This document shows positions 3,633 to 22,628 of a DNA stretch of 64,000 nucleotides, piece after piece. The notes beneath the pieces are model-generated. The model ran no database searches. It had not been told where the DNA came from and saw nothing but the letters and a program-made list of their open reading frames with translations. The DNA is from Mycolicibacterium sp. BiH015 (GTDB lineage: Bacteria > Actinomycetota > Actinomycetes > Mycobacteriales > Mycobacteriaceae): the NCBI RefSeq assembly GCF_027706845.1, contig NZ_JAQGCZ010000002.1, forward strand, positions 186,001 to 250,000, written 5' to 3'. Each line of letters opens with the position of its first letter. Within the stretch, counting starts at the first letter, position 1. The translations under genes were made by a program, and so were the position numbers.

Positions 3633-4808
3633 ATGCCTGTCACCGCGGCGCGTGCCGACCTGCCTGCGATGCAGGCGCGTCCGCAGGGGCCGTTCGGCAT
3701 CTATATCCACGTGCCGTTCTGCGCCACGAGATGCGGATACTGCGACTTCAACACCTACACCGCCGGCGAGCTGGGGGGTGCGAACGCGGACGGCTGGCTG
3801 GCCGCGGTGCGGACCGAGCTGCGCCTGGCCGCGGGACGGCTCGGTGCGACTCCTGACGTGCAGACGGTGTTCGTCGGCGGGGGGACACCGTCACTGCTCG
3901 GTGCGGCAGGGCTGACGGCGGTGCTCGACGCGATCCGGGACAACTTCACGCTGGCGCCCGGCGCCGAGGTCACCACCGAATCCAACCCCGAGTCCACATC
4001 GCCGCAATTCTTCGCCGACGTGCGCACCGCGGGGTTCACCCGCATCTCGCTGGGGATGCAGTCCACCGCACCGCACGTCCTGGCCGCCCTGGACCGGGTG
4101 CACTCGCCGGGTCGGGCCCTCGACGCCGCCCGTGAGGCCCGTGCCGAGGGCTTCGACCACGTCAACCTCGATCTGATCTACGGAACGCCGGGGGAGACGG
4201 ACGAGGATCTGTTGCGCTCCGCCGATGCGGCCATCGAGACCGGGGTCGACCACATCTCCGGATATGCGCTCATCGTCGAGGACGGCACCGCGCTCGCGAG
4301 GCGGGTGCGGCGCGGCGAGATCCCCGCCCCCGACGACGACGTGCACGCGCGCCGGTATGAATTGCTCGACGGCCGCCTCACCGACGCCGGGTTCGACTGG
4401 TACGAGGTGTCGAACTGGAGCCGCCCCGGCGGGGAGTGCCGACACAACCTCGGCTACTGGAACGGTGGCCAATGGTGGGGCGCGGGTCCCGGCGCGCACA
4501 GCTATGTCGGCACCACACGCTGGTGGAATGTGAAGCATCCCAACGCTTATGCCGACACGCTCGGCGTGGGTGACTTGCCCGTCGCCGACTTCGAGGAACT
4601 GGACGCCGAGACCGCCCACGTCGAGGACGTCATGCTGCGGGTCCGGCTGCGTATCGGCCTACCGCAGCGACTACTCTCGGATTCCGAACGGCAGCGCACG
4701 TTGCGTTTGGTTGCGGACGGACTCCTGCAGGTGCGCGACGACCGCCTCGTGCTCACCGACCGCGGTCGCCTGCTCGCCGACGCGGTCGTGCGCGACGTGT
4801 TGACCTGA
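3633..4808 (+). CDS. hemW: radical SAM heme chaperone HemW
   Basis: A 391-aa radical SAM protein of the HemN/HemW family. The cluster motif C-A-T-R-C-G-Y-C (CxxxCxxC) is near residue 30, preceded by I-Y-I-H-V-P-F, and the G-G-G-T-P-S SAM-binding motif is near residue 85. The HemN C-terminal winged domain is present. HemW-type proteins bind heme and deliver it to target proteins; the family was long annotated as oxygen-independent coproporphyrinogen III oxidase, but the true HemN usually has one more Cys in the motif and a longer N-terminus, both absent here. Divergent from the sirA operon, as Rv2388c is near Rv2391 in M. tuberculosis. The stop lies 3 bases from that of the convergent oxidoreductase. 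Confidence 0.9.
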   Translation: MPVTAARADLPAMQARPQGPFGIYIHVPFCATRCGYCDFNTYTAGELGGANADGWLAAVRTELRLAAGRLGATPDVQTVFVGGGTPSLLGAAGLTAVLDAIRDNFTLAPGAEVTTESNPESTSPQFFADVRTAGFTRISLGMQSTAPHVLAALDRVHSPGRALDAAREARAEGFDHVNLDLIYGTPGETDEDLLRSADAAIETGVDHISGYALIVEDGTALARRVRRGEIPAPDDDVHARRYELLDGRLTDAGFDWYEVSNWSRPGGECRHNLGYWNGGQWWGAGPGAHSYVGTTRWWNVKHPNAYADTLGVGDLPVADFEELDAETAHVEDVMLRVRLRIGLPQRLLSDSERQRTLRLVADGLLQVRDDRLVLTDRGRLLADAVVRDVLT

Positions 4809-6104: not shown

Positions 6105-6195
6105 CGAACACCGCTCACAGGAAACCCACAGCGCGCGCCGGGTAGCTCACTGTGAGCAAAGTCGTTGTGCCAGGATGTCCGGCATGCCGCGGGTC

Positions 6196-6214
6196 TTAGG
6201 GAAGGCTATCCACA
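6196..6214 (+). promoter_or_regulatory. IdeR (iron) box upstream of the 6-MSAS-type PKS
   Basis: TTAGGGAAGGCTATCCACA matches the 19-bp IdeR consensus TTAGGTTAGSCTAACCTAA at 14 positions, including the full TTAGG half and the central GGCTA. It ends 19 bases before the GTG at 6234. The two boxes between mbtA and mbtB match at 13 of 19 each, so this site is at least as good. It predicts repression of the PKS by IdeR-Fe2+ and expression under iron limitation. Confidence 0.7.
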
Positions 6215-6233
6215 CATCGCCGGCACGGCCGAC

Positions 6234-9200
6234 GTGGGGCTGAACAGCGCCCAGCCCCCCGCTCCGATCGCCATCGTCGGCATCGGCTGCCGTCTGGCGG
6301 GCGACATCACCACACCCGAGGACTTCTTCGCGTTCCTGCTCGACGGCCGAAGCGCTGTCTCGCAGGTGCCGGCTGAGCGCTGGGAGCCCTACCTACAGCG
6401 GGATCCCCGCAACGCCGCAGTCCTGCGGGAGACGACGCCGTGGGGCACGTTCCTCGACGATCTCGCCGGATTCGACGCCGACTTCTTCGGGGTGTCCCCC
6501 CGTGAAGCCGAGCTGATGGACCCGCAGCAGCGCCTGGCGGTGGAAGTGTCGTGGGAGGCCCTCGAGCACGCGGGTATCGCGCCGCGGTCGCTGGCGGGCA
6601 CCGACACCGCCGTGTTGATGGGAGTCAATTCCGACGACTACGGCAAGCTTCTCATGGAGGACCTCGCCGGAATCGAAGCGTGGACGGGCATCGGCACGTC
6701 GCTGTGTGGCGTGGCGAATCGCGTGTCGCATCTGCTCGATCTGCGCGGACCGAGTGTCGCGCTGGACGCCGCGTGTGCGGCCTCGCTCGTCGCGGTGCAT
6801 CAGGCCTGCCAGTTGCTGCGGGACGGTGAGACATCGCTGGCGCTCGCGGGCGGCGTCAGCGCGCTCATCGGCCCCGGCCTGACCCGGGTTCTCGACGTGG
6901 CGGGTGCGACCGCCCCCGACGGGCGCTGCAAGACATTCGACGACGCCGCCGACGGTTACGGGCGCGGCGAGGGTGCGGGCGTGGTCGTGCTCAAGCGGCT
7001 CGACGACGCCCTGCGCGACGGTGACCGGGTGCTGGCCGTGGTGCGCGGCGGAGCCGTCGCACAGGACGGGAGAACAGTGGGCATCATGTCGCCGAACGGC
7101 GACGCCCAGGCCGACCTGTTCCGGCTGGCCTGCCGCGTATCCGGCGTCGATCCATCCAGCGTGGACTACGTCGAGGCGCACGGAACCGGCACGCCCACAG
7201 GCGATCCCGTCGAGGTGAGCGCGCTCTCGGCGGTCTACGGAGCCGGTCGCGGAGATGCGCCCTGCGCCATCGGTTCGGTCAAACCCAACGTCGGGCATCT
7301 CGAGGGCGGCGCCGGGGTGGTCGGGCTCATCAAGGCGACCCTGGCGTTGCATCACGAGATGCTGCCGCCCACGGCCGGGGTGAAAAACCTGACCACGGCG
7401 GTCGATTGGCCCAGCAGTGGCCTGCGTGTGCCCACGGACACGGAAGCCTGGCCGCGCGGTGGAACACCGCGCCGGGCCGCGGTGTGCAGCTACGGTTACG
7501 GCGGCACCATCGCCCACGTCCTTCTCGAGGAGGCGCCGGCCCCGGCAGAGATCCGAACGTCCTCTACACCAATATCTTTCATCCCGCTCTCGGCGCGCTC
7601 GGAGTCCCGGCTCACCGCGCAGGCCACGGCGTTGGCCGCCCGGATGCGTGCCACGGAGGTCGCCGTCGGCGACGTCGCCGCCACGATGTGGACCCGCCGA
7701 TCGCAGGAATCCGTACGGGCGGCGGTAATCACCGATGGTCTTCCCACTGCGCAGGCCAGGGCCGCCGCCCTCGGTGCGCTTGAAGCGATGGCCGCACAGG
7801 TCCGCGATCCCCGCGTCGTGACGGGAACCGTCATGCCCGGCGCAGAAAACGGTGCGGTGTGGGTCTTTTCAGGGCACGGCTCGCATTGGGCCGGCATGGG
7901 CCGCGAGCTGTTGGCGACAGAGCCTGTCTTTGCGGCAACGATCGACGAGGTCGACGCGGTGTTCGTCAGGGAGCTGGGATTTTCCGCCCGCGCGTCCCTG
8001 ACCGCCGAGGATCTGGGCGGCACCGACCAGGTGCAGGCCCTCACCTTCGCGATGCAGGTCGGTCTCGCAGCGGTGCTCAAAGCCCGCGGAGTGACCCCCG
8101 CCGCGGTGATCGGCCACTCCGTCGGTGAGGTCGCGGCATGCGTGGTGGCGGGCGTGTTCGACCTGACTCATGGAGCGGCCGTGGCGTGTTACCGGGCCAG
8201 GGGTTTCCGGTCCGTCATGGGCGACGGCGCAATGGCACTGGTGCGGCTGCCGTTCGACGAAGCGGATCGGCGGCTGGCGGGCCGTACCGACGTCGTCGCC
8301 GCCATCAGCGCGTCGAGCTATTCCACTGTGGTCTCGGGCACTGTCGCCGCCGTCGATGAGATCGTCGACCGGTGGAGTGCCGACGACATCACAGTGCGCC
8401 GAGTGAATACCGATGTGGCGTTCCACAGTCCCGCGATGGACGGGCTCACCGAGGAATTGGCGCGGCTGGTGGGTCGACTCCCGCATCCGGGGCGCGCGCG
8501 TGTGCCGCTCTACACGACCGCGCTGGAGGATCCGCGCTCGGACATGTCACGGGGCCCCGGGTACTGGGTGGCGAACTTGAGGGGCCGGGTGCGGTTCGCC
8601 GAGGCAGTCGAGGCCGCGTCCGAGGACGGGCACCGCTTGTTCCTTGAGGTGTCGGCGCACCCCGTCGTTTCCCACTCGATCGTCGAGACATTGCTCGGGC
8701 TGCCTGTCGACGCGCATGCCGTGGTGCCCGTGCTGCGACGCGACCAGCCGGAGCGGCGCTCGATAGGAGCCGCCGTCGCCGCGCTCTACTGCCACGGGGC
8801 CCCCGTGGCGCACGGCCTGACCACGAGAACCCGATGGGCCGCTGATCTGCCGGGAACGCAGTGGCAGCACCGCCGGTTCTGGCGCACCCCTGCACCGCCG
8901 CCCGGGACCCGGGCGCTGCACGACCCGGCGACCAACACGCTTCTCGGCGGTGCGCTCGACGTGACCGGGGAGGTGCCTGCCCGAATCTGGCAGACCAGGC
9001 TGGAGATGGACAACCGTCCCTATCCCGGTGACCATCCGGTGCAGCAGACCGAAATCGTGCCTGCAGCAGTGCTTCTCAACACATTCTTGAAGGCCGCGGG
9101 GTCAGGGCTGACCGATGTGCGGTTGCGCACCCCGGTTCCGCCCGGCCGTCCCCGCGACATCCAGGTCGTCCTGCAGGACCGCTCGCTGCGCATATCGTCG

Positions 9201-11411
9201 CGGCTCACCGCCATCGACGGAGCGGACGCCAACGCCGACCTGCCCGGCGGCTGGCTCACCCATTGCAGTGCCGTCGCCGCGATCGACGAGGACTTCTGCG
9301 GCGACTTTGTGGGCGAGTTCGACGACGCGACGGGCAGCGGTGCCGACGACGCCTGGGCTCGGTGCGCCGAGCAACTGCCGCCCAGCCACGTGATCGATAC
9401 CCTTGCCGGCGTCGGCGTAGCTGCGATGGGCTTCGGCTGGCAGGTGCTCGAATTGCGCCGCGGTGACGGCGAATTACTGGCGCGCGTGGCGGCGGAAGCC
9501 GACGGGTCGACGCCGACGACGTGGGCAGGTCTGCTCGATGCGGCGACGTCGGCCGCGTCCACCGTCTTCGACGGCCCCCCGCGGTTGCGGATGCCCGCCA
9601 GGATCGACCGCGTGCACGTCTGCGGCGAGCCCCCAGCGGTGGCGGTGTTGCACATCCGTCGTCGAGGTGGCGCGACCGCCGACGTGTCGATCGCCGACGA
9701 ATCCGGCGCAGGCCGCGCCACCATCACAGCGATGGCCTTCGAGGAACTGGAGAACCCCGGCGGGAGCGATTTGTCCCGGATGTTGCACCACGTCGCGTGG
9801 TACGAGACGCCGGTGGATGCCGGTGACGGTCCGGCCTCGGTAGTCCTGGTCGGTGGCGCCGACGACGACATCGCCTCTGTGCACAATGATCTCACCGTCG
9901 CTGGGGTGCCGACTCGCCTCTGCACCGGTGTGGAGCAATTGCCGGACGCACTGGATCGGGACTGTGTGGTGCTGCTCCTCCCTCGCGCCGACGATTCGGC
10001 GGCGATCTGTGCCGAGCAGGTGCTAAACACTCTCAAAGGCCTGCACGACAAACGATCTCAGGCCAGGCTGTGGGTGTTGACGCGTCGTGTCCACGAGGGC
10101 ACCAACCTGGTGCACGCGCCGCTGTGGGGAATGGCCCGTGTGACCGCCGCCGAACATCCGCAGCTGTGGGGCGGAGTGATCGATCTCGCCGACGATCCGG
10201 TTCCCGCGGGTGTCCTGGCTTCGATGCACGGTCACGGCGTCGTCGTGGTTCGCGACGGCGCGGTGTTGACTGCGCGATTGACGAACGCGCGCCCCGCAAC
10301 CGGTGCGCCGATGACATGCACCCCGGGCGGCACGTATGTGATCACCGGCGGAACCGGCGCGCTGGGACTCAGGATCGCGCACCGCCTCGCCGATCTCGGC
10401 GCGCGACGTCTGGTGCTGCTGTCGCGGTCCGGCATACCCCACCGCGACCAATGGTCCGCCGACCACCAGACCGACGCGATACGTGCGGTTTCGGCATTGG
10501 AGGAACGCGGTGTCACCGTGCACGTTGCGGCCGTGGACATCGGTGCGCCCGATGCGGGCGATCGGCTGCGTGCGGTGCTGCGGGACATGCCCGCTGTCCG
10601 CGGTGTGGTGCACGCGGCCGGGGTGGAAGCCGGTGCGTTGCTGCTGAGCACGTCGGCTGACGACCTGAGGACCGCGATGCGCCCGAAGGTCGAGGGCACG
10701 CTCACCCTGCACGAGATGTTCCCGCCGGAGCAACTGGACTGGATGATCCTGTTCTCCTCCTGTGGTTACCTCGCGGGCTTTCCGGGGCAGGGCGCCTATG
10801 CGTGCGCCAACGCGTTCCTGGACGCGGTTGCGCGCCACCGCCGCGGTCTCGGGGACCGCACGGTCGCGGTCGCGTGGACCGCATGGCGAGGCCTCGGAAT
10901 GGGATCGACGTCGGAGTTCGTCGCCGCTCAACTCGAAGCGCTCGGCATGGGAACGGTGGGCGCCGACGACGCACTGCGGGCCCTGGACTCGGCGATGCGC
11001 GGCGATGAACCGAATGTTGTTGTGCTACCCCTTCTTCCAGAGGCCTCGGCCGTGCCGATGTTCGCCGACGTTGCGCCATCGCCAGATTCGGCGTCAGGTC
11101 ATGTCGAGTCCCTGGCGGGGCCTGGCGACGACGACCTCGACGAATGGGTGGCGCGGCAGGTCATTGAGGCAGTCGCCGCCGAACTCGGGCTCGTCACCGA
11201 CGACGTCGATCCGCGGGTTCCGTTGGTCGAGACCGGTGTCGACTCGATCATGACCGTTGCGTTGCGGCGGGCACTGGAGAAGCGGACCGGGCTGGTGTTG
11301 CCGCCCACGCTGTTGTGGGAGCACCCGACGGCTGAGGCCGTCACCGACCGCATCCTGGAACTCCTGACTCCGCAGCGCGAAGCCGCAGGCCACAAAGCCG
11401 AGGTCTCCTGA
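6234..11411 (+). CDS. iterative type I PKS of the 6-methylsalicylic acid synthase type (KS-AT-DH/TH-KR-ACP)
   Basis: A 1725-aa single-module PKS. KS at about 10-430 (active Cys181 in D-A-A-C-A, His in E-A-H-G-T-G-T and in N-V-G-H). AT at about 540-830, opening V-F-S-G-H-G-S-H-W-A-G-M-G, with Ser629 in G-H-S-V-G and V-A-F-H where malonyl-specific AT has HAFH. A dehydratase-like domain with His934 in D-H-P-V-Q-Q-T-E-I-V-P-A-A (Gly of HxxxGxxxxP replaced by Gln). KR from about 1360 (G-G-T-G-A-L-G). ACP Ser1671. Architecture, length (family about 1750 aa) and the S-G-H-G and T-E-I-V-P-A-A signatures match fungal 6-MSAS and bacterial ChlB1/NcsB-type enzymes, which build 6-methylsalicylate or related aromatic acids from acetyl- and malonyl-CoA. 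There is no thioesterase; in fungal 6-MSAS the DH-like domain releases the product. The start is GTG 6234 because the IdeR box lies just upstream. Product identity is inferred. Confidence 0.85.
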   Translation: MGLNSAQPPAPIAIVGIGCRLAGDITTPEDFFAFLLDGRSAVSQVPAERWEPYLQRDPRNAAVLRETTPWGTFLDDLAGFDADFFGVSPREAELMDPQQRLAVEVSWEALEHAGIAPRSLAGTDTAVLMGVNSDDYGKLLMEDLAGIEAWTGIGTSLCGVANRVSHLLDLRGPSVALDAACAASLVAVHQACQLLRDGETSLALAGGVSALIGPGLTRVLDVAGATAPDGRCKTFDDAADGYGRGEGAGVVVLKRLDDALRDGDRVLAVVRGGAVAQDGRTVGIMSPNGDAQADLFRLACRVSGVDPSSVDYVEAHGTGTPTGDPVEVSALSAVYGAGRGDAPCAIGSVKPNVGHLEGGAGVVGLIKATLALHHEMLPPTAGVKNLTTAVDWPSSGLRVPTDTEAWPRGGTPRRAAVCSYGYGGTIAHVLLEEAPAPAEIRTSSTPISFIPLSARSESRLTAQATALAARMRATEVAVGDVAATMWTRRSQESVRAAVITDGLPTAQARAAALGALEAMAAQVRDPRVVTGTVMPGAENGAVWVFSGHGSHWAGMGRELLATEPVFAATIDEVDAVFVRELGFSARASLTAEDLGGTDQVQALTFAMQVGLAAVLKARGVTPAAVIGHSVGEVAACVVAGVFDLTHGAAVACYRARGFRSVMGDGAMALVRLPFDEADRRLAGRTDVVAAISASSYSTVVSGTVAAVDEIVDRWSADDITVRRVNTDVAFHSPAMDGLTEELARLVGRLPHPGRARVPLYTTALEDPRSDMSRGPGYWVANLRGRVRFAEAVEAASEDGHRLFLEVSAHPVVSHSIVETLLGLPVDAHAVVPVLRRDQPERRSIGAAVAALYCHGAPVAHGLTTRTRWAADLPGTQWQHRRFWRTPAPPPGTRALHDPATNTLLGGALDVTGEVPARIWQTRLEMDNRPYPGDHPVQQTEIVPAAVLLNTFLKAAGSGLTDVRLRTPVPPGRPRDIQVVLQDRSLRISSRLTAIDGADANADLPGGWLTHCSAVAAIDEDFCGDFVGEFDDATGSGADDAWARCAEQLPPSHVIDTLAGVGVAAMGFGWQVLELRRGDGELLARVAAEADGSTPTTWAGLLDAATSAASTVFDGPPRLRMPARIDRVHVCGEPPAVAVLHIRRRGGATADVSIADESGAGRATITAMAFEELENPGGSDLSRMLHHVAWYETPVDAGDGPASVVLVGGADDDIASVHNDLTVAGVPTRLCTGVEQLPDALDRDCVVLLLPRADDSAAICAEQVLNTLKGLHDKRSQARLWVLTRRVHEGTNLVHAPLWGMARVTAAEHPQLWGGVIDLADDPVPAGVLASMHGHGVVVVRDGAVLTARLTNARPATGAPMTCTPGGTYVITGGTGALGLRIAHRLADLGARRLVLLSRSGIPHRDQWSADHQTDAIRAVSALEERGVTVHVAAVDIGAPDAGDRLRAVLRDMPAVRGVVHAAGVEAGALLLSTSADDLRTAMRPKVEGTLTLHEMFPPEQLDWMILFSSCGYLAGFPGQGAYACANAFLDAVARHRRGLGDRTVAVAWTAWRGLGMGSTSEFVAAQLEALGMGTVGADDALRALDSAMRGDEPNVVVLPLLPEASAVPMFADVAPSPDSASGHVESLAGPGDDDLDEWVARQVIEAVAAELGLVTDDVDPRVPLVETGVDSIMTVALRRALEKRTGLVLPPTLLWEHPTAEAVTDRILELLTPQREAAGHKAEVS

Positions 11412-11458: not shown

Positions 11459-11534
11459 ATGAGTCGGTTCTTCCACTCTGCTCATAACACCCGCACCGAT
11501 GGGGAGGCGGGGACAGAGCTGGAGGAGCCAGAGC

Positions 11535-13028
11535 ATGAATCTCACCAACTTCGCCCGAGCCGCGCTCGTGGCCGGCGCCGTCACCGGCGCGTCCCTCGGG
11601 ATGGCCGGCAATGCCGCTGCCACCACCGTTTCGCACGCCGCGGCGCCCGTGTCATCGATCGCTGCGCCGAGCACTTTCGCGCCGGCACCCGTCACCGCGC
11701 TGGGATCCTGGCGGGGTAAAAAGGACGACGACGGTGGCGACTCGGGCGGCGACGTCGGTGGCGACTCGGGCGGCGACGTCGGTGGCGGCGACGACTACTC
11801 GTCGGCCGTCGACGACGCGGGTCCCGACTACGACACCGGTGCCGACTACGCCGAAGTGCCTGACGACCCTGCACCCGCCGAGGAATCCCCTGACGTCGTC
11901 GATGCGCCCGACGATCAGCCGCCAGCGCCGGAGAGCGACGCTCCGGACACCGACTCGAGCCCAGAAGCGCCCGAGGCGCCCCAGAGCCCGGAAGCCCCGC
12001 AGGCGCCTGAGGCTCCGGAGACGCCCGAAGCTCCGGAAGTGCCCGAAGCCCCGCAGGCGACCGAGGAGCCCGAGGCGCCGGAAGCGCCTGAGGCCCCGCA
12101 GGCCCCCGAGACGCCCGAAGCCCCGCAAGCCCCTGAAGCTCCGCCGGCCCCGGAAGCGCTCGCGCCGCCGCAAGCGCCGGAAGCGCCGGAAGCCCCGCAG
12201 GCTCCGGAAACGCCGGACACCCCCGACAGCCCGCCGGTGAACGCCGACCCGACGACGGCCACACCGCAGGACATCGACTCCATGCGCACCAGCATCATGA
12301 GCAGCTTCTCGGGGAGCTCCTCCTGGAGCTCACAGGTGTCCGCCTGGAACTCGTCCTGGCTCAGCTACAACACGTACGGCCTTCCGGTTCTGTTCAACTC
12401 CTACGCCGCGCCAATGGAGGTCTTCTACACCTACGGCGGCGCTACCCGGACGGTCACCATCCCGCCCCAACAGCGCGTCGTGCTGCCGGCGACCACGCCG
12501 GGCCGCTACGGCTTCACCTCCGTGGTGCGCACCCCGCAGGGAGGCGTCAGCCACGTATCGGTCGGCAGCTTCACAGCCGGCGGTGGTGGCGGGCATCCTG
12601 CTCCGACGCAGGGCGCGTCCGCTCCGCAACCGCAGCGCAACGTGTGGGTCCAACTGAACTACTCGACGGGCACCTCACAACCGTTCCGCGTCGGATCCTT
12701 GACCGATCTCGGTGAAGACTCCGCGGTCGGCGCTCACCGGGTGCTCATCGACGGCTCGGTGTCGGCGTGGGGTGAATGGTCCAAGAACCCTGACGGCTCA
12801 GCGCAATTCGAGGTCTCCAAGACCGATCAGTTGCCGGGCCTGACCGCCCCGTCCGAGGCGCCGCTGCCCGGCTACGACGTCTCGCTCGTCTCCAAGGAGT
12901 CGTCGGCCACCACCGGTGTCACGCAAGTCCTGCCCTGGGTCGCACTCGCGGCGGGTGCCCTGGGGCTCGGTTCGGCCGGAGGTGCCCTGCTGATGGGGCG
13001 CCGCCGCCGAGCCGAAGGCAGCCAGTAG
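11535..13028 (+). CDS. secreted, membrane-anchored Pro/Glu/Ala-repeat protein
   Basis: A 497-aa exported protein of unknown function. Residues 1-30 are a signal peptide ending near G-N-A-A-A. A Gly/Asp segment (G-G-D-S-G-G-D-V repeats) follows, then about 90 residues of P-E-A-P-E/Q-A repeats (nucleotides about 11960-12220) that should be extended and proline-stiff, probably a cell-wall-spanning stalk. A folded region rich in Ser/Trp/Tyr and beta strands follows from about residue 240. The C-terminus has a hydrophobic helix (L-P-W-V-A-L-A-A-G-A) and then G-R-R-R-R, a membrane anchor resembling a sortase tail without LPXTG. GGAGGAG lies 8 bases before ATG 11535. Its promoter carries the SARP-type direct repeats shared with the C39-like gene, which ties it to the downstream kinase/regulator pair. 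Confidence 0.8.
   Translation: MNLTNFARAALVAGAVTGASLGMAGNAAATTVSHAAAPVSSIAAPSTFAPAPVTALGSWRGKKDDDGGDSGGDVGGDSGGDVGGGDDYSSAVDDAGPDYDTGADYAEVPDDPAPAEESPDVVDAPDDQPPAPESDAPDTDSSPEAPEAPQSPEAPQAPEAPETPEAPEVPEAPQATEEPEAPEAPEAPQAPETPEAPQAPEAPPAPEALAPPQAPEAPEAPQAPETPDTPDSPPVNADPTTATPQDIDSMRTSIMSSFSGSSSWSSQVSAWNSSWLSYNTYGLPVLFNSYAAPMEVFYTYGGATRTVTIPPQQRVVLPATTPGRYGFTSVVRTPQGGVSHVSVGSFTAGGGGGHPAPTQGASAPQPQRNVWVQLNYSTGTSQPFRVGSLTDLGEDSAVGAHRVLIDGSVSAWGEWSKNPDGSAQFEVSKTDQLPGLTAPSEAPLPGYDVSLVSKESSATTGVTQVLPWVALAAGALGLGSAGGALLMGRRRRAEGSQ
11736..11783 (+). repeat. two perfect 24-bp in-frame tandem repeats
   Basis: The 24-bp unit starting GGCGACTCGGGC occurs twice without change inside the secreted protein gene, encoding G-D-S-G-G-D-V-G twice. 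Exact nucleotide identity suggests a recent duplication and possible length variation between strains. Confidence 0.8.
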
Positions 13029-13042
13029 CAGGGCTGCCGGAG

Positions 13043-13075
13043 CCGGGGGCGTGGGCGCACAGCCCACGCCCCCGG
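13043..13075 (+). terminator. strong hairpin terminator
   Basis: CCGGGGGCGTGGGC and its exact reverse complement form a 14-bp GC stem around a 5-base GCACA loop, 15 bases after the secreted-protein stop and before the SARP-FHA gene. There is no U tract, consistent with mycobacterial intrinsic terminators. It should separate the two transcripts. Confidence 0.75.
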
Positions 13076-13124
13076 TCTTCGTTCACAATTGACCCGGCGA
13101 GCGGTGCGAGAGAAAGGGAGCGTC

Positions 13125-14267
13125 ATGGCCGAACGTGCTCTGGGCTTCGGTGTCCTCGGCCCGCTGCAGATGACGACCGGGGGAGTCGAGGTCCCGGTCG
13201 GCACACCCAAGCTGCGCGCAGTCCTGGCGATGCTCGTGATCAACCGCAACCGCGCGGTAGCCGTGGACTCGCTGATCGACGCGGTATGGCAGGAGGTGCC
13301 GCCCCCGGGGGCACGCGCCAGCCTGCATTCCTACGTGTCCAATCTTCGCAAACTCGTCGGCAACACCGGGGCAGACCCACAGACGACCTTGGCAAGCGCT
13401 CCGCCGGGGTACCGCCTCACCCTCCCCGATCAACAGTGCGATCTGGGGCGGTACACCGCCCAGAAGGCCGCGGGGGTGCACGCCGCCGCGGCAGGCGATT
13501 TCGAGAAGGCCAGCGCACACCTGGCTGCGGCGCTGGCGGAGTGGCGCGGACCGGTTCTGGAGGACCTGCGGGGGTTCACATTCGCCGAGCAGTTCGCGAC
13601 CGCACTCCAGGAGGACCGCCTCGTCGCCGCCACCGCACGAGCCGAGGCCGAACTGGCCTGCGGGCGCGCCGCCACGATCACCGGGGAGCTGGAGGCGCTG
13701 GCCGCCGAAAACCCGTACCGCGAACCGCTGTGGGCGCAGCTGATCAGCGCCTATTACCTCGGCGAGCGGCAATCGGAAGCGCTGTCCGCCTACCAGCGGC
13801 TCAAGACGGCCCTCGCCGACGAACTGGGCATCGACCCGGGACCGACGTTGCGTGACCTGCACGACAGGATCCTGCGCCAGCAACCCCTGGACGTGAAGCA
13901 GGCGGCCAGACAGACGGCGGTGGGTGCCAAGACCGTCCTCGACCAACGCACCCTGATCGACGGTGGGAACTCCTCGGCGTGGCTCGTGGATCCGACCGGC
14001 CATCGTCACCTGCTCACCTCCGTCGCCACCCGCATCGGCAGAGCACCGGACAACGAGATCGTCATCGACGATCCGAAGGTCAGCCGCACGCACGCGGCGA
14101 TCATCGACACAGGCACCGGCTACGCCGTGACGGACCTGCGCTCGGCCAACGGCATAGAGCTGGGAGACACGCGAGTGCAGGGTAGCGCCCCGTTGACCGG
14201 CGGGGACCGGTTCCGAATTTGCGGGCACGTCTTCACCTTCGAATTCGGTGGTACGCCCGTACCGTAG
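13125..14267 (+). CDS. EmbR-like transcriptional regulator (SARP winged helix + BTAD + FHA)
   Basis: A 380-aa regulator. Residues 1-95 form an OmpR-type winged helix of the SARP family (F-G-V-L-G-P-L start; S-L-H-S-Y-V-S-N-L-R-K-L recognition region). Residues 98-245 form the bacterial transcriptional activation domain ending A-L-S-A-Y-Q-R-L. Residues about 295-375 form an FHA domain with R-I-G-R, the phosphothreonine-binding S-R-T-H and S-A-N-G-I. This is the domain order of M. tuberculosis EmbR, which is phosphorylated by PknH and read through its FHA domain. Here a transmembrane kinase lies 44 bases downstream, so a kinase-regulator pair is likely. ATG 13125 has an AAAGGGA upstream; in-frame extension to 13089 is less likely. 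Candidate targets are the two TCAAG direct-repeat promoters. Confidence 0.85.
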   Translation: MAERALGFGVLGPLQMTTGGVEVPVGTPKLRAVLAMLVINRNRAVAVDSLIDAVWQEVPPPGARASLHSYVSNLRKLVGNTGADPQTTLASAPPGYRLTLPDQQCDLGRYTAQKAAGVHAAAAGDFEKASAHLAAALAEWRGPVLEDLRGFTFAEQFATALQEDRLVAATARAEAELACGRAATITGELEALAAENPYREPLWAQLISAYYLGERQSEALSAYQRLKTALADELGIDPGPTLRDLHDRILRQQPLDVKQAARQTAVGAKTVLDQRTLIDGGNSSAWLVDPTGHRHLLTSVATRIGRAPDNEIVIDDPKVSRTHAAIIDTGTGYAVTDLRSANGIELGDTRVQGSAPLTGGDRFRICGHVFTFEFGGTPVP

Positions 14268-14311
14268 GGGCGACGCGGCCTCTCGGTGGTCGCAACCGAC
14301 GAGAGGCGGCT

Positions 14312-15817
14312 ATGGACGACGCCCCGCACAACATGCGGGTCGGCACCCGGCTGGGTCCGTACCAGATCAACCGACTCATCGGCCGAGGCGGCATGGGCGA
14401 GGTGTACGAGGCGGATGACACCGTCAAGGGCCGCACAGTGGCATTGAAGCTGCTGCCCGAATCCCTGTCGCACGACCCGGCTTTCCGTGAGCGGCTCCAG
14501 CGCGAGGCACGCGCCGCGGGCAGGTTGCAGGAACCGCATGTGGTGCCCATTCACGACTACGGCGAGATCGACGGCCATCTGTTCGTCGACATGCGGCTGA
14601 TCGACGGGACCGACCTGCGCAGCGTCCTCGCCGCGGAGGGCCCGTTGGCGCCGGCTCGAGCGGTGTCGATCATCCGTCAAGTGGCAGCGGCGTTGGACGC
14701 CGCGCACGCTGCGGGCATTACGCATCGCGATGTGAAGCCCGAGAACATTCTCATCACCCCTGATGATTTCGCCTATCTCGTCGATTTCGGCATCGCGAGT
14801 GCGAGCAGCGACAAGACGCTGACCGAAATGGGCGCAGCCATAGGAACTTACGCGTACATGGCGCCCGAACGGTTCAGCGCCAGGCCGGTTGATCACAGGG
14901 CGGACGTATACGCGCTGGCCTGCGTGCTGCACCAGACCTTGACGGGCACTCAACCCTATGTCGCCGACAGCATCAGCATGATGATCACCGCCCATCTGGT
15001 CGATCCGCCGCCACGTCCGAGCCAGGTGCGCCCTGATCTGGCCCAGGCGTTCGACTCGGTTGTCGCGGCGGGGATGGCCAAGCGTCCCGAAGAGCGGTTC
15101 GAGAGCGCGGGTGCGCTGGCACGGGCGGCGCAGGCGGCGCTCGGCTCTTCAGATCAGCCCGCAGCACCCGCTCCGTTGACAGGGGCCGTGCCATCGGCGG
15201 CGCCGCGGGAGACACAGCGGCGAGGTCGGCGCCGGCCACTGCTCGTCTCGGGCGCCGTGGCCGCTGTTGTGCTGCTCACCGCGGGAGGCGTCGCCGCGTG
15301 GGCGACGCTGCGCTCGTCGGATTCGGCGTCGGCGATGTCGTCGACGCTGACGTTGACACGGACCGTCACGAACACGCCCCGGGTACCGATGAGCACCACG
15401 CGCGCATTCACGCCCGCCGAACGCCAGCTCATGACACTGGTGCCCGATCCTGCCGCATGCGTGCCGAATCGCAAGTGGGACAATGCTATTGCGGCATTCG
15501 ACTGCAAACCCACCGAGAGCGGCGATGGCCACGAGCGCGCATTCTTCGCTCTCTACAGCGATGTCGACCGGCTCCAGGAGGACTTCACGTCCGTCATCGG
15601 AGACGACGAACTCACCGCATGTCCGGGAACGGATGGTTCGCCGACCAACTGGGACTTCAACAGCGGCGACCCCGATGAGTCCGAGGGGATGCTGGCGTGC
15701 GGCGAATTCGACGGCAGAGCCGACATCGTCTGGACGAAGACGTCGGATCTGCTGCTCGGCACGGGGCAGGGCAACAATCTCGACACCCTCTACAAGTGGT
15801 GGGCCGGCATTGCCTGA
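14312..15817 (+). CDS. transmembrane Ser/Thr protein kinase (PknH-like arrangement)
   Basis: A 501-aa receptor kinase. The kinase domain (residues about 15-275) is intact: G-R-G-G-M-G at 24-29, Lys46, H-R-D at 138-140, D-F-G at 158-160 and G-T-Y-A-Y-M-A-P-E closing the activation loop, with Thr residues for autophosphorylation. A Pro/Arg-rich juxtamembrane linker leads to one TM helix at about 309-333. The extracellular domain of about 165 residues has four Cys (likely two disulfides) and many Trp/Asp residues; I do not recognise it as a PASTA or NHL sensor. GAGAGG precedes ATG 14312. It is co-oriented and probably co-transcribed with the FHA-SARP gene, its likely substrate. Confidence 0.9.
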   Translation: MDDAPHNMRVGTRLGPYQINRLIGRGGMGEVYEADDTVKGRTVALKLLPESLSHDPAFRERLQREARAAGRLQEPHVVPIHDYGEIDGHLFVDMRLIDGTDLRSVLAAEGPLAPARAVSIIRQVAAALDAAHAAGITHRDVKPENILITPDDFAYLVDFGIASASSDKTLTEMGAAIGTYAYMAPERFSARPVDHRADVYALACVLHQTLTGTQPYVADSISMMITAHLVDPPPRPSQVRPDLAQAFDSVVAAGMAKRPEERFESAGALARAAQAALGSSDQPAAPAPLTGAVPSAAPRETQRRGRRRPLLVSGAVAAVVLLTAGGVAAWATLRSSDSASAMSSTLTLTRTVTNTPRVPMSTTRAFTPAERQLMTLVPDPAACVPNRKWDNAIAAFDCKPTESGDGHERAFFALYSDVDRLQEDFTSVIGDDELTACPGTDGSPTNWDFNSGDPDESEGMLACGEFDGRADIVWTKTSDLLLGTGQGNNLDTLYKWWAGIA

Positions 15818-16614: not shown

Positions 16615-18309
16615 TCACCGGGCGCTGAGAAGCGCCACTAACTGTTTCTTGTCGACCTTGCCCACCGCGGTGGTGGGCAAGGCCGACACCGGGACGAGGA
16701 CGTCGGGTCGTGCATGCGTGGACGCACCACGCTCGTCCAGGAACGCGTTCAGTTCGGCCAACGTGACCGGCTTGCCCGAGAAAACCACTGCGGCACAGAT
16801 CTTCTCGCCGAGGTACTCGTCGGGAAGGGCGACCGCGGCCGCGGCGTAGACGGCCGGATGGGTGTGCAGGTGGTCTTCGAGGTCTGTTGCCGATACGGTT
16901 TCCCCGCCGCGGTGGATGACGTCTTTGATGCGGCCCACCACCTCGACGTAGCCGGCCCTCGGACCGTCGGCGAAGATGCGAACCCGGTCGCCGGTGCGGT
17001 AGAAGCCGTCCGGCGAGAATGACCGCGCGTTCGCCTCGTCGGCCCGGTAGTAGCCGTTGAGCGTGTAAGGCCCCCGTACCAACAGTTCGCCCTCTTCACC
17101 GGGTGGCACCTCGTCGCCGTTGTCGTCGACGACCCGCATCTGGTCGTGTGGCGACATCGGCCTGCCCTGCGTGTGCACCACCACGTCCACGGGGTCGCCG
17201 GGACGGGTGAAGTTCAGCATCCCCTCGGCCATCCCGAAGATCTGCGACATGCCCGGCGTGAGCCGATCGAGGATGAAGCGCGCCTCTTGCGGGCTCATCC
17301 GGGATCCGCCGACCTGAACGTAGCGCAGTGAGGTGGGCAGCACCGGCTCCCACTCGCACGCTTGAGCCCACACCTTGGCCAGCGCATTGACCAGGCCGGT
17401 GACGGTGATCGCGTACCTGTCGATGAGTGCGAACGCGTTCTCCGGGCTGGGGTCGGCGGTGAACACGGTGGTGGCGCCGACGGTCATCGACCCCAGCAGC
17501 CCCGGGCAGGCCAGTGGAAAGTTGTGTCCGGCGGGCAACGCCACCAGGTAGGCGTCCTCCCCGGTCATGTCGCAGGCCTGTGCGCAGGCGACTGCGTTGT
17601 AGAGGTAGTCGTTGTGGGTGCGGGGGATCAGCTTGGGCAGGCCCGTGGTGCCACCGGAGACCAGCAGCAGTGCGGGCAGGGCCGGGTCGACGGCGGCACG
17701 TTCGACCGGAGGGCCGTCATACGTGGCGATCGAGGACCAGGGCAGAAACGGCCCGCAATCTCCGTCGACGATCACGTGGCGCAGCGATGCGTGCTCGCCG
17801 ACGAGGTCGGTGGCCATCTCGCGGTAGTCGAAACCGGCGGCCTGGTCGGGCACGATGAGTGCGACCGCGCCGCTGACCTCGGCGAAATGTCCCAGTTCGG
17901 CGGTCCGGTGTCCGGGAAGGCACATGACGGGAACGGCTCCGGCGCGCAGCAGACCGAACAGGGCGACCGCGAACTGACACGAGTTCGGCAGCTGCAGCAG
18001 CACTCGGTCACCGGCAGCGATGCCGAGGTGCGCGAGTCCGGCCGCGGCGCGGTCGGCCAGCGCGTTCAGTTCCGCAAACGTGTATGAGCGCGCGTGGTCG
18101 ACGATCGCCGGTTTGGAAGGCCAGGCCGCCGCCGCGTCGGTCAGGATCGAGTCGAGCGCCCGGTCGGCCCAGTAGCCTGCCCGTCGATACTCCTGGACTC
18201 GGTGGTCGGGGAAGGGGACGAATCCGCGCGCCAGGTCCGGACGGTCTGGTCCTCGGTCCGGTCCGCGCTGATGGTTATCGCCGCGATAGGGCAGGAATCC
18301 GGTGCTCAT
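16615..18309 (-). CDS. mbtA: aryl acid AMP ligase MbtA (salicylate- or 6-methylsalicylate-AMP ligase)
   Basis: A 564-aa stand-alone adenylation enzyme of the DhbE/EntE/MbtA class: it activates an aryl acid as AMP ester and transfers it to the aryl carrier domain of MbtB. Visible core motifs are S-G-G-T-T-G-L-P-K (P loop), F-G-M-A-E-G, Y-R-T-G-D and the C-terminal catalytic Lys in V-G-K-V-D-K-K. The N-terminus G-F-V-P-F-P is typical of the class. It is divergent from mbtB across two IdeR boxes, as in M. tuberculosis. mbtI is absent nearby and a 6-MSAS-type PKS lies upstream, so its natural substrate here may be 6-methylsalicylate; pocket residues cannot be judged without a structure. Confidence 0.93.
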   Translation of the reverse strand: MSTGFLPYRGDNHQRGPDRGPDRPDLARGFVPFPDHRVQEYRRAGYWADRALDSILTDAAAAWPSKPAIVDHARSYTFAELNALADRAAAGLAHLGIAAGDRVLLQLPNSCQFAVALFGLLRAGAVPVMCLPGHRTAELGHFAEVSGAVALIVPDQAAGFDYREMATDLVGEHASLRHVIVDGDCGPFLPWSSIATYDGPPVERAAVDPALPALLLVSGGTTGLPKLIPRTHNDYLYNAVACAQACDMTGEDAYLVALPAGHNFPLACPGLLGSMTVGATTVFTADPSPENAFALIDRYAITVTGLVNALAKVWAQACEWEPVLPTSLRYVQVGGSRMSPQEARFILDRLTPGMSQIFGMAEGMLNFTRPGDPVDVVVHTQGRPMSPHDQMRVVDDNGDEVPPGEEGELLVRGPYTLNGYYRADEANARSFSPDGFYRTGDRVRIFADGPRAGYVEVVGRIKDVIHRGGETVSATDLEDHLHTHPAVYAAAAVALPDEYLGEKICAAVVFSGKPVTLAELNAFLDERGASTHARPDVLVPVSALPTTAVGKVDKKQLVALLSAR

Positions 18310-18353: not shown

Positions 18354-18372
18354 ATAGGGTAGCCTCCTCAAA
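18354..18372. promoter_or_regulatory. IdeR box 1 between mbtA and mbtB
   Basis: ATAGGGTAGCCTCCTCAAA matches 13 of 19 positions of the IdeR consensus, with the TAGG..TAGCCT core. One base separates it from box 2. In M. tuberculosis the mbtA-mbtB intergenic region likewise carries two iron boxes that repress both directions with iron. This one is 45 bases from the mbtA start. Confidence 0.75.
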
Positions 18373-18373
18373 G

Positions 18374-18392
18374 TTAGGGCAGCCTGCACTTA
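18374..18392. promoter_or_regulatory. IdeR box 2 between mbtA and mbtB
   Basis: TTAGGGCAGCCTGCACTTA matches 13 of 19 consensus positions and is followed by TTAATTC, a possible -10 region for mbtB. Box and promoter would overlap, fitting simple repression by IdeR-Fe2+. Confidence 0.75.
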
Positions 18393-18417
18393 ATTCTGTA
18401 GCCCGTCGAGGAGGTTG

Positions 18418-21400
18418 GTGAGTTTGGCGCCGACGACTGCACAGTCGGTCCGCGACGAGGTTGCTGAGCTTCTCGGTGTGAGCGCGGACGAACTCGATCC
18501 GCAGGCCGATCTCATCGCCTCGGGCCTGGACTCGATCCGGATGATGTCGTTGTCGGGGCGGTGGCGCAGACAGGGTATCGACGTCGGCTTCGCGGCGCTG
18601 GCTGCAAACCCCACGGTGTCGGCGTGGACCGACCTCGTGGCCGGCAGCGCCGCCCCGGCTCCCGCCCAGGTCCCCCCGTCCTCGGTCGCGGAGACCGAGG
18701 AGGAGACGTTCCCCCTCGCGCCGATCCAGCACGCCCTCTGGGTCGGTCGCAACGACGATCAACAGCTCGGCGGCGTGGCGGCCCACCTCTACATCGAACT
18801 CGACGGCGAAGGGGTGGATCCTGCCCGGCTGCAGACCGCCGCGACCGCACTCGCCGCGCGGCACCCCATGCTGCGGGTCGACATCCTGCCGGACGGCACC
18901 CAACGGATCAGCGACCGCGGACTGCCCGTCACGGTTTACGACCTGCGTGACCGCGATCCCCAAGACGCCCAGGCGCGGCTCGACGAGATCCGCGACGACA
19001 AGTCGCATCAGATCATGCACGGCGAGGTTCTGCAGATCTCGCTGTCACTGCTGCCACAAGGCCGGACCCGCCTGCACGTCGACTTGGACATGCAGGCCGC
19101 CGACGCGGTGAGCTACCGCAACTTCATGTCCGACCTGGCCGAATTCTACAGCGGCGGAACGCTTCCCGACCTCGCCTATACATACCGTGAGTACCGGGCG
19201 GCGCTGACCGAAGCGGTGTCGGAAACCGAAGAGGATCGGCAGTGGTGGGCCGAACGAATCCCCACCCTTCCCGAAGGCCCTGCGCTACCCCTGGTTCCGC
19301 GCTCAGAACAGGCCGACCCGCGGCGAGGCACCCGACGTGTCCACGTCTTCGACGTCGCCACCCGTGACGCTCTCTTCGCCGCGGCGCATCGACGCGGCAT
19401 CACACCAGCGATGGCGGTGGTCGCGTCCTACGCCGGCACCTTGGCGCGCTGGTCGACCAGCCGCCGATTCCTGCTGAACCTGCCGATGTTCGGACGCGAG
19501 CAGTTCCACCCCGATGTCGACAAGCTCGTCGGGGACTTCACCTCGTCGCTGATGCTTGATGTCGACCTCACTGAGGCCCACACCCCGATCTCTCGCGCAC
19601 GCGTCCTGCAGGACACCCTGCACGCCACCGCGCGCCACTCCAGCTATTCGGGACTTTCGGTGCTGCGGGATCTGACCCGCCACCACGGCACACCGGTCCT
19701 GGCGCCGATCGTCTACACCAGCGCGCTGGGGCTCGGGGACCTCTTTGCGGGCAAGGTCACCGAGTTCTTCGGCCGTCCGGTCTGGACCATCTCGCAGGGC
19801 CCCCAAGTACTGCTCGACGCGCAGGCCACACCGGTGGCCGAGGGACTCATGATCAACTGGGACACCCGGGAGGACGCGTTCCGGCCCGGTGTCGCCGACG
19901 CGATGTTCGCCTATCACATCGCCGAGCTCGAGCGCCTCGCCACTGACGAATCGTCCTGGGAGGCGGTGGATCTGTGTGCCGTCACGCCGGAGCAGGCGGC
20001 GGCCCGCGACGCCGCCCGTGCCGTTGTCGGGGCCCCCGCGGCGCCCAGTGGCGATGCACTGCACGACGGCTTCTTCCGCCGTGCCCGAACGCACCCCGAC
20101 GCACCAGCGGTGTTCAGCACCGCCGGTGACCTGTCCTACGGAGAACTCAGGCAGCAGGTGCTGGCAGCGGCGGCCGGCCTGGACGTCGCCGGTGTCCGCC
20201 GGGGCGATGCCGTCGCGGTGATGGGGCCGAAGAACGTCGAACAGATCATCGCGCTACTGGCGATCTCGGCGGTCGGCGCGGTGTACGTGCCGGTCGGTGT
20301 GGACCACCCGGTGGAACGGGCTTCCCGGATGCTCGCCAACAGCCGGGCGCGGATGGCGCTGGTCTGCGGCGACCAACCTCCGACGACAATGCCCGCTCTG
20401 ACCGTCGCCGAGGCGATCAGGGTCGGCAGCCGAGCGAATGGACTCGTCCGTCCCGCAGTGGATTCCGCTGAGCTGGGCTACATCCTGTTCACCTCGGGCT
20501 CGACCGGTGAGCCCAAGGGCGTCGAGATGGCACACGACGCCGCCATGAACACTGTCGAGTTCATCAACGGGCACTTCGCAATCGGCCCGCAGGACCGCTG
20601 TCTGGCGCTGTCGACCCTCGAATGCGACCTGTCGATCCTCGACATCTTCGGCATGTTGCGCGCCGGCGGATCGATCGTCGTCGTCGACGAAGAGCGTCGC
20701 CGCGATCCTGACGAGTGGGCTCGGCTCATCGAACGGCATCGTGTCACCGTGCTGCACTTCATGCCGGGGTGGCTCGAGATGCTCGCAGCGGTCGACGGGG
20801 ACCTCTCGTCGGTGCGCGTGGTGCCCACCGGCGGCGACTGGGTGCGCCCCGAGCTGGTGCGCGCGCTGCGAAAGCGCGCTCCGCACATGCGGTTCGCCGG
20901 CCTCGGCGGCGCCACTGAGACCGCCACCCACAACACCGTCTGTGAGGTCGGCGAGCTCCCGGCGGACTGGACGTCGGTACCGCTTGGTGTACCGCTGCCG
21001 AACAACGTGTGCCGGGTCGTCGGCGCAGACGGACAGGACTGCCCCGACTGGGTTCCCGGCGAACTGTGGGTCAGCGGCCGTGGCGTGGCGCGGGGCTACT
21101 GTGCCAGGCCAGACCTCACGGAGCAACGCTTCGTCCGGCACGACGGCAGGACGTGGTACCGCACCGGCGATCTGGTCCGGTACCGGACCGGCGGCGTCAT
21201 CGAGTTCGTCGGGCGCGCCGATCACCGCGTCAAGATCAGCGGCTACCGCGTCGAACTGGGCGATGTCGAGGCCGCACTGCGCGGACTGCCCGGGGTCGAC
21301 TCTGCCGTAGCTGCCGTGGTGCCCGCCGACAGCGGTCGCGATGTGCTCGCCGCAGTGGTCAGCGCCGATACCGGCGCGGCTGGGCTGGAATCCGGAAAGA

Positions 21401-21888: not shown

Positions 21889-22628
21889 CCGGCGTGCCGA
21901 CCCACCTCGACATTCCCTCGTGGATCAAGCGATTCCCGGGTGAGGGTGCCTCGCCGACCATCGTTTTTCCTCATGCCGGTGGTGCGGCCGCTGCGTACCG
22001 TAACTTCGCCACCGCGTTGGCCGCCAAGGGTGTGGACACCTTCGTCGCCCAGTATCCGCAGCGTGGTGAAAGGCTCAAGGACCCCGCTCCGGACACCGTG
22101 CCTGAACTGGCCGCCGAGATGCTGGCAGCCGTCGACTGGACGCAACTGGGGCCGCTGCGGCTGTTCGGCCACTGCATGGGTGCGCTCGTCGGTTTCGAGT
22201 TCGCGCGACTGGCCGCCGAACGAGGGATCGCCGTCCGTGAGCTGTGGGCGTCGGCCAGCCAGGCGCCGTCGACCGTGGCGGACTCCCGGCCCGCACCGAC
22301 CACCGATCGTGAACTCCTCGCTGACATCGTCGACATGGGTGGCACCGATGCGCGCCTGCTCGACGACGAGGACTTCCTCGACTTGCTGCTGCCCGCGGTG
22401 CGCGCCGACTACCGCGCCTTCAACCGGTACACCTGCGAGCGCGGCGTGCGCATCGGTGCCGACATTCATGCCATCGGCGGCGCCGCTGACCACCGGGTCG
22501 ATCAAAATTCGCTGCGCCAGTGGCAGTTCCACACCGACGGCGTGTTCACCTTCACCCAGTTCGACGGCGGCCACTTCTACATCGACGACCATCTCGACGA
22601 CGTCGCCGAACTGGTGAGTTGCACATGA
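21885..22628 (+). CDS. stand-alone type II thioesterase of the mycobactin operon
   Basis: A 247-aa alpha/beta hydrolase of the type II thioesterase family (F-P-H-A-G-G-A, Y-P-Q-R-G-E-R-L, P-L-R-L-F-G-H near 90-96, D-G-G-H-F-Y-I at the end). It occupies the place of the thioesterase domain fused to MbtB in M. tuberculosis, overlapping mbtB by ATGA and mbtC by ATGA. These enzymes clear misprimed carrier domains. The nucleophile elbow reads G-H-C-M-G, so Cys97 stands where the usual Ser is; His230 is present. Ser is the rule in type II TEs, though Cys variants are known in related hydrolases. Confidence 0.88.
   Translation: MTGVPTHLDIPSWIKRFPGEGASPTIVFPHAGGAAAAYRNFATALAAKGVDTFVAQYPQRGERLKDPAPDTVPELAAEMLAAVDWTQLGPLRLFGHCMGALVGFEFARLAAERGIAVRELWASASQAPSTVADSRPAPTTDRELLADIVDMGGTDARLLDDEDFLDLLLPAVRADYRAFNRYTCERGVRIGADIHAIGGAADHRVDQNSLRQWQFHTDGVFTFTQFDGGHFYIDDHLDDVAELVSCT

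Follow-up and report, generated by a model that had tools for sequence, protein, structure and literature searches.

A 6-methylsalicylate-synthase-type polyketide synthase at the mycobactin locus of Mycolicibacterium sp. BiH015 as the likely substitute for MbtI

The window analysed here, a 64 kb stretch of the Mycolicibacterium sp. BiH015 genome, carries a mycobactin locus in which mbtA to mbtG are all present. The aryl-acid AMP ligase gene mbtA (16615–18309) lies on the minus strand, and the plus strand holds mbtB (18415–21888; carrier, condensation-type, adenylation and carrier domains), the ketosynthase gene mbtC (22520–23983), mbtD (23980–26904), the NRPS genes mbtE (26888–31993) and mbtF (32004–36491), and mbtG (36488–37810), which encodes a lysine/ornithine N-oxygenase domain. 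Only mbtD passed an equivalog cut-off (NF037940); the others were recognised by domains and gene order, and mbtB, mbtC, mbtE, mbtF and mbtG were named by position. Facing mbtA is a plus-strand gene for an iterative type I polyketide synthase of the 6-methylsalicylate synthase type (hereafter MSAS), and mbtA ends 5.2 kb downstream of it, in agreement with the roughly 5 kb given by the sequence-only reading, with other genes filling the interval. The open reading frame spans 6165–11411 from a TTG (1748 aa), while the GTG at 6234, the putative start codon, gives 1725 aa (6234–11411) and leaves an upstream operator-like box in place. Further upstream lies a hemW-like radical SAM gene (3633–4808, plus strand), which gene-order comparison revealed as a common neighbour on the mbtI or MSAS side.

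The open reading frame and the Pfam domain order (ketoacyl synthase, acyltransferase, weak dehydratase, KR, PP-binding) agreed with the earlier description of a 1725-aa KS-AT-DH-KR-ACP enzyme. Numbered from the GTG, the KS domain (6264–7382) has Cys181, His316 and His355 together with the cavity residues Tyr242 and Tyr422; the AT domain (7857–8753) has GHSVGE and VAFH motifs of the malonyl type; the DH/TH region (8973–9761) has His934 and Asp1102; the KR domain (10329–10889) retains Lys1485, Ser1509, Tyr1522 and Asn1526, all intact; and the ACP domain (11157–11354) has Ser1671, all on the plus strand. This order on a single chain of about 1700–1800 aa is that of 6-MSAS-type enzymes, although the DH match was weak (PF21089 reached 27.4 bits, with the cut-off at 27; PF14765 stayed below its own). 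The two KS tyrosines were placed by motif at FabF 229 and 400. In all 118 aligned mycobacterial MSAS sequences, the catalytic residues of KS, AT, DH/TH, KR and ACP and both tyrosines were identical. According to PMC2661021, two cavity-blocking tyrosines mark the small cavity of MSAS.

A different small aromatic acid, orsellinic or naphthoic acid, could be the product used as the siderophore cap, as enzymes that make orsellinate or naphthoate belong to the family (PMC2636887 and PMC4256081), those for naphthoate may have an identical domain layout, and one NCBI orthologue record is named 5-methyl-1-naphthoate synthase. Orsellinic acid synthases are recognised by an absent or inactive KR, whereas the KR residues are intact here and in every one of the 118 sequences, and the tyrosine pair points to a short chain. 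Known mycobactins bear only H or CH3 on the ring, and we regard another acid as very unlikely.

In a tree limited to sequences not named as characterised enzymes, the mycobacterial MSAS sequences formed one clade beside actinobacterial relatives. Among these relatives, the protein of Streptomyces sp. Tue6028, the polyketomycin producer, is 48% identical to MSAS and has the same active-site residues, and an AMP-ligase gene follows its own gene. ChlB1, PokM1 and other bacterial 6-MSAS enzymes are likewise single-chain KS-AT-DH-KR-ACP proteins, but enzymes of the ChlB1/PokM1 type serve antibiotics, unlike the MSAS of the mycobactin locus. Among the loci compared, L232 has a KSIII-like gene on its 5′ side, whereas none of the KSIII-type genes of the present genome lies within the 64-kb window. 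In chlorothricin biosynthesis, 6-methylsalicylic acid is moved by a KSIII-like enzyme (PMC9573744). Because no gene for such a transferase was found in the window, the DH/TH domain is the likely agent that would free the acid from MSAS.

An IdeR-like operator, TTAGGGAAGGCTATCCACA, lies 5′ of MSAS at 6196–6214 (plus strand) and matches 14 of the 19 positions of the IdeR consensus, as the earlier reading had reported. Since the whole window holds two 14/19 and three 13/19 sites, a lone 14/19 match is modest evidence only, and the case for this box is carried by its conservation in relatives. Among the loci where MSAS converges on mbtA, 80 of 81 had their own IdeR-type box (at least 12/19) near the MSAS start, while in the co-directional loci, where MSAS follows mbtA, no such box was present (0/28), none scoring above 11/19. 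A pattern built from the boxes of the MSAS family, a partly circular measure, matched the window once against 0.01 expected. Two further sites (18354–18372 and 18374–18392, each 13/19) lie in the divergent region between mbtA and mbtB. Membership of the IdeR regulon was judged by a box near the start that is conserved in relatives, and on this ground MSAS is a predicted member.

The absence of mbtI near the synthase extended to the whole genome: neither the window nor the remainder gave a match over the salicylate-synthase cut-off (TIGR03494), a model with hits above cut-off in 210 of the 396 congeners and one of 14 controls (E. coli). Three chorismate-binding domain proteins were found, all below this cut-off; they look like TrpE, PabB and EntC/MenF, and the EntC/MenF-like gene adjoins a phosphoglycerate-mutase-like gene. 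No PchB-type lyase scored over cut-off in the genome, which is a weak test because the same model was over cut-off in 0 of the 14 controls.

MSAS was found in 125 of the 396 Mycobacterium genomes sampled, usually beside mycobactin genes, a count that could be slightly low because four candidates were scored per genome. A hit was counted if its identity across the DH-to-KR region reached 52%, and weaker ones (about 35%) were excluded as other PKSs. Of 315 genomes with mbtA, 105 had MSAS only, 189 had mbtI only, 20 had both and one, 88% complete, had neither; MSAS never occurred without mbtA (0/125). In 112 of 120 loci, the retrieved stretch also contained mbtA. The near-exclusive occurrence of MSAS and mbtI gave a Fisher p of 1e-24, a value that overstates independence because MSAS is passed on jointly with the MbtA subclass. 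Nineteen of the 20 genomes with both genes belong to the M. fortuitum group and M. triplex relatives, and in these 20 mbtI lies either beside or apart from MSAS; three further genomes of the M. fortuitum group keep MSAS and lack mbtI. M. phlei and M. thermoresistibile are sources of 6-methylsalicyl mycobactin, and M. fortuitum of a mixture; all three have named MSAS orthologues among public protein records. An M. aurum orthologue did not appear by name among the matches listed (80 of 103 loci, and 120 each of 534, 656 and 480 proteins). The earlier attribution of the route to rapid growers was too narrow, since MSAS also occurs in M. triplex, M. florentinum, M. stomatepiae and Mycolicibacter species.

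The MbtA of the window (Asn308, Ser336, Ile357, Met364) belongs to a subclass linked to MSAS. MbtA scores were split by a gap, with 124 genomes above it, all with MSAS, and 26 listed below it, all with mbtI and without MSAS. When 113 sequences from MSAS genomes were aligned with 22 from mbtI-only genomes, the two sets separated with support 1.0; position 308 was Asn in 113/113 and Pro in 22/22, and position 357 was Ile in 111 of 113 and Val in 22 of 22, respectively. Pro also occupies the Asn308 position in the solved structure of M. smegmatis MbtA, 5kei. These residues could be lineage marks. The pocket was read from the alignment and from active-site residues listed in a docking paper (PMC10745912).

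With no mbtI in the genome, a near-exclusive distribution, a matching MbtA subclass and a conserved box, the proposal that the PKS replaces MbtI was strengthened, and MSAS very probably makes 6-methylsalicylic acid that MbtA would activate as the mycobactin cap. MSAS would join one acetyl and three malonyl units iteratively, with a single keto reduction by the intact KR followed by cyclisation, and the MSAS-linked MbtA would form the acyl-AMP and load the first carrier of MbtB. When iron is plentiful, IdeR would keep MSAS off. In convergent loci it would act at the gene's own box; in co-directional ones, where the two genes look like an operon, repression would run through the mbtA promoter.

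The acid might instead serve another metabolite, with mycobactin salicylate coming from an unrecognised source. Both genes are kept in 20 genomes, and some 5 kb of other genes separate MSAS from mbtA in this window. However, the 105 genomes with mbtA and MSAS that lack mbtI, the negative lyase search and the shared IdeR-type box argue otherwise, as does gene order: of the 81 convergent loci, 54 had the two stops at most 300 nt apart, and MSAS abutted mbtA in all 28 co-directional loci (spacing −19 to 186 nt). We consider this explanation very unlikely too, slightly less probable still than that of another acid. Least credible of all, and extremely unlikely, is that MSAS is simply carried along with one kind of mbt locus, the co-occurrence being due to shared ancestry alone. 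The MSAS-linked MbtAs do form one clade, and on the MbtA tree the association comes down to essentially a single split, but the catalytic residues are retained throughout, the box is kept or lost in step with gene order, and the three M. fortuitum group genomes lack mbtI and not MSAS.

Returning to MSAS as the source of the cap, the mycobactin of MSAS-only genomes is likely capped by a polyketide rather than a shikimate-pathway acid, because mbtI is missing from 105 of the 125 genomes with MSAS. In the mbtI-type locus, mbtA and mbtB adjoin as here, but salicylate comes from chorismate via MbtI and MbtA is of the Pro type, in place of MSAS and the Asn308 MbtA. hemW lay on the mbtI side in the seven stretches that held hemW, mbtI and mbtA, and its gap to MSAS was below 330 nt in 29 loci. 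Nor does mbtI always occupy a place next to mbtA, because mbtA was outside the stretch in 12 of 20 mbtI-only loci fetched (about 126–129 kb off in two). We consider it probable that mycobactin synthesis takes two forms across the genus, one drawing on the shikimate pathway (MbtI and a Pro-type MbtA) and the other on a polyketide route (MSAS and an Asn-type MbtA). On this reading, MSAS would have moved together with its partner MbtA, mbtI would then have been lost repeatedly, and the M. fortuitum group and M. triplex relatives would be living intermediates feeding both routes into one Asn-type MbtA.

The name 6-methylsalicylic acid synthase is already in databases, and searches of open-licence papers found no link from it to mycobactin. 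The 6-methylsalicylate reaction was reportedly demonstrated in M. phlei about half a century ago; MSAS is a candidate gene for it and, at 125 of 396 genomes, no oddity. The closest parallel is the cahuitamycin pathway of Streptomyces gandocaensis (CahI, cah MSAS, CahJ), where PMC4757757 attributes cahuitamycin C to a 6-MSAS and proposes that an MbtI homologue and 6-MSAS feed one siderophore via one AMP ligase. In that pathway the 6-MSAS gene is unlinked, at a distance of at least about 50 kb, and CahI is present as well, whereas in the window MSAS sits in the mbtA locus behind an IdeR-like box, and mbtI is gone in 105 of the 125 MSAS genomes. Both MbtI and MbtA are under study as drug targets (PMC10745912); if the polyketide route is real, inhibitors of MbtI would not reach species that rely on MSAS alone, and species with both genes would bypass them. 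Knowing the MbtA subclass would be a simple way to read the predicted cap from sequence, and the subclass would provide a natural experiment on how an aryl-AMP ligase accommodates a 6-methyl group.

The longest reading of the MSAS gene (predicted 6-methylsalicylate-synthase-type iterative PKS) in the window spans positions 6165–11411 on the plus strand; when read from the GTG at 6234, it encodes 1725 aa and the IdeR-like box at 6196–6214 remains upstream. The sequence-only reading had proposed that this IdeR-boxed PKS replaces MbtI, the usual salicylate synthase, as the acid source for mycobactin, and the position that it gave for the synthase was borne out by the ORF and its Pfam domains (KS, AT, KR and carrier, with a weakly matching dehydratase region between AT and KR). 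The mbtA-G locus comes after MSAS and is headed by the aryl-acid AMP ligase gene mbtA (16615–18309, minus strand), followed by the MbtB to MbtG genes, named from domains and order. The genes between MSAS and mbtA (11499–15817) include an ORF without a Pfam match (11499–13028) and a Ser/Thr kinase gene (14219–15817), which among the fetched loci L041–L160 recur only in two M. iranicum loci (L041 and L042).

The window (G000:C2:186001–250000) belongs to a genome of 6.72 Mb in 69 contigs, estimated to be 100% complete. Chorismate-binding domains were found at three places in this genome, and the genome-wide salicylate-synthase model scored the same three places with none over the cut-off, extending the absence of mbtI beyond the window. 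Judged by sequence and neighbours, the three enzymes resemble TrpE, PabB and an isochorismate synthase of the EntC/MenF type. The isochorismate-pyruvate-lyase model gave no match over its cut-off in the source genome, and the same was true of all 14 control genomes, which makes the negative result weak.

The catalytic residues of all domains were identical in 118/118 mycobacterial MSAS proteins, as were Tyr242 and Tyr422, which we take, by motif mapping, to be FabF positions 229 and 400. In PMC2661021, the tyrosines at these FabF positions are described as blocking the cavity, which is small in MSAS-type KS domains. Because the KR is intact, 6-methylsalicylate is favoured over orsellinate as the predicted product. 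Full-length orthologues (68–70% identical) with all the listed residues are recorded under the names M. phlei, M. thermoresistibile and M. fortuitum. A 6-methylsalicyl group is present in mycobactin P of M. phlei and mycobactin H of M. thermoresistibile, and mycobactin F is of mixed type. Many MSAS orthologues are named 6-methylsalicylic acid synthase by JGI and a few by NCBI. Other public records are named PpsA or 5-methyl-1-naphthoate synthase (P0021, P0030, P0036 and P0055), and these names are likely misannotations.

The survey of which mycobacteria have the PKS, mbtI or both, suggested by the sequence-only reading, was carried out on 396 Mycobacterium genomes, a sample of a larger group. 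With the DH-to-KR stretch of the window synthase as the query, 193 genomes matched at E ≤ 1e-10; MSAS was counted at ≥52% identity, the remaining listed matches being about 35% identical, and was thus present in 125 genomes. The mbtI gene was over the model cut-off in 210 genomes. Both genes were found in 20 genomes, MSAS only in 105, mbtI only in 190 and neither in 81 (odds ratio 0.08, Fisher p 1e-24, uncorrected for relatedness). Among the 315 genomes with mbtA at E ≤ 1e-120, the corresponding numbers were 20, 105, 189 and 1; as only G355, which is 88% complete, had neither gene, 314/315 mbtA genomes have at least one aryl-acid source. None of the 125 MSAS genomes and a single mbtI genome (G256) lacked mbtA. 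Of the 81 mbtA-less genomes, 53 are ≥90% complete and ≤5% contaminated (361 less 308), so incompleteness cannot account for every one, and some of these lineages may be without mycobactin or use another scheme. At the thresholds applied, 80 genomes lacked mbtA, mbtI and MSAS alike.

Fifteen of the 20 both-gene genomes formed one clade, the M. fortuitum group, including M. septicum, M. peregrinum and M. porcinum; M. senegalense had the same layout. Four others were M. triplex and relatives, including florentinum and stomatepiae, and the last was G076. MSAS-only genomes included M. vaccae, M. austroafricanum, M. chubuense, M. iranicum (the nearest to the window), M. neoaurum, M. elephantis, M. 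frederiksbergense, Mycolicibacter algericus and Mycolicibacter longobardus. The scan of named genomes covered the best 80 of 103 relatives. On the MSAS tree, mbtI presence changed at least five times. It was missing at three M. fortuitum-group tips (G119, G124 and G339; loci L122, L125 and L107), where some nodes were weakly supported; these genomes keep MSAS, with hemW directly adjoining it.

For 120 of the other 124 MSAS genes, surrounding stretches of up to 20 kb were fetched, and 112 of these stretches contained mbtA; of the remaining eight, six were cut by a contig end and two had mbtA farther off or on another contig. Two arrangements were seen in the 109 loci that had a full-length MSAS together with mbtA: in 81, MSAS was convergent on mbtA (stops ≤300 nt apart in 54), and in 28 it followed mbtA in the same direction with a spacing of −19 to 186 nt. 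In 85/120 stretches hemW preceded MSAS on the same strand, and in 29 of these it was no more than 330 nt away. Among 20 fetched mbtI-only loci, mbtA was outside the stretch in 12, and all seven that contained hemW, mbtI and mbtA had mbtI in the middle. The locus is split in the mbtI-only genomes G337 and G131, with about 126–129 kb from mbtI to mbtA. The order in the M. fortuitum group was hemW, mbtI, MSAS, mbtA, with mbtI beside MSAS at 15 loci; in the five whose positions were examined, mbtI lay about 260–280 nt before MSAS on the same strand. M. triplex and relatives (L085, L100, L104 and L114) differ from this group in that a long distance separates mbtI from the MSAS-mbtA locus.

The IdeR consensus was scanned from about 250 bp before to 60 bp after the MSAS start in 117 loci with full-length MSAS. 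The best match was 13–15/19 in 78 of the 81 convergent loci (12 in two, 10 in one) and 9–11/19 in all 28 co-directional loci; the eight loci without mbtA in view reached 13–15/19. Simulated 250-bp sequences, slightly under the scanned length, reached ≥12/19 in 3/400 cases. The box is kept in convergent loci and absent in co-directional ones; MSAS thus has a predicted IdeR-type box of its own in the arrangement that calls for a separate promoter, but not when it sits behind mbtA. In the window, the mbtA-mbtB gap holds two adjacent IdeR-like sites (13/19 each).

When MbtAs were scored against that of the window, 124 genomes reached ≥882.8 bits and all had MSAS; below the score gap (≤817.7 bits), the 26 among the matches listed all had mbtI and none had MSAS. 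The sole MSAS genome outside the high-scoring set was G076, an mbtI genome in which MSAS is fragmentary and the match to MSAS-type MbtA only partial (G076:C8:36058–37406 and 40164–41054). When 113 MbtAs of MSAS genomes were aligned with 22 of mbtI-only genomes, the two groups split with a support of 1.0, and 16 positions distinguished them at the threshold used, one in a gapped stretch. Asn308 (113/113) and Ser336 (113/113) of MSAS genomes corresponded to Pro (22/22) and Ala (20, with Ser in 2) in mbtI-only genomes, and Ile357 and Met364 (111/113 each) to Val and Leu (22/22 each). These four of the 16 positions were at or adjacent to residues named in PMC10745912 for a docking model of M. tuberculosis MbtA, whose numbering is five lower than that of the window MbtA. 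Ser336 is not diagnostic, because M. tuberculosis also has Ser there by that numbering. All 19 aligned MbtAs of both-gene genomes had Asn308 and Ile357. These residues may be adaptations or lineage marks.

Taken together, these results support replacement of MbtI by a 6-MSAS-type PKS, with a reach wider than one window. The enzyme type, the siderophore and the chemistry are already known. According to PMC4757757, a Streptomyces siderophore is fed by an MbtI homologue and, as proposed there, an unlinked 6-MSAS. Within the open-licence PMC literature, as far as it was covered, we found no tie of mycobacterial MSAS to mycobactin and did not find an earlier description of the gene link, the genus-wide mbtI replacement, the placement-dependent IdeR-type box or the MbtA subclass.

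In the KS tree, mycobacterial MSAS (32 sequences used) formed one clade beside actinobacterial relatives. Relatives outside Mycobacterium came from Actinophytocola, Streptomyces, Amycolatopsis and Rhizohabitans; in 11 of 12 the protein was mostly readable and 44–50% identical, and ten of these 11 carried every listed residue, the other being without the KS part. The Streptomyces locus has a KSIII-like transferase, but the window MSAS locus has no counterpart, since all five KSIII-type matches of the genome lie outside the window. An AMP-ligase gene, 41–43% like MbtA, lay just downstream of the MSAS relative in 11/12 non-Mycobacterium loci (among L226–L240), so the pairing of synthase and ligase may predate its mycobactin role.
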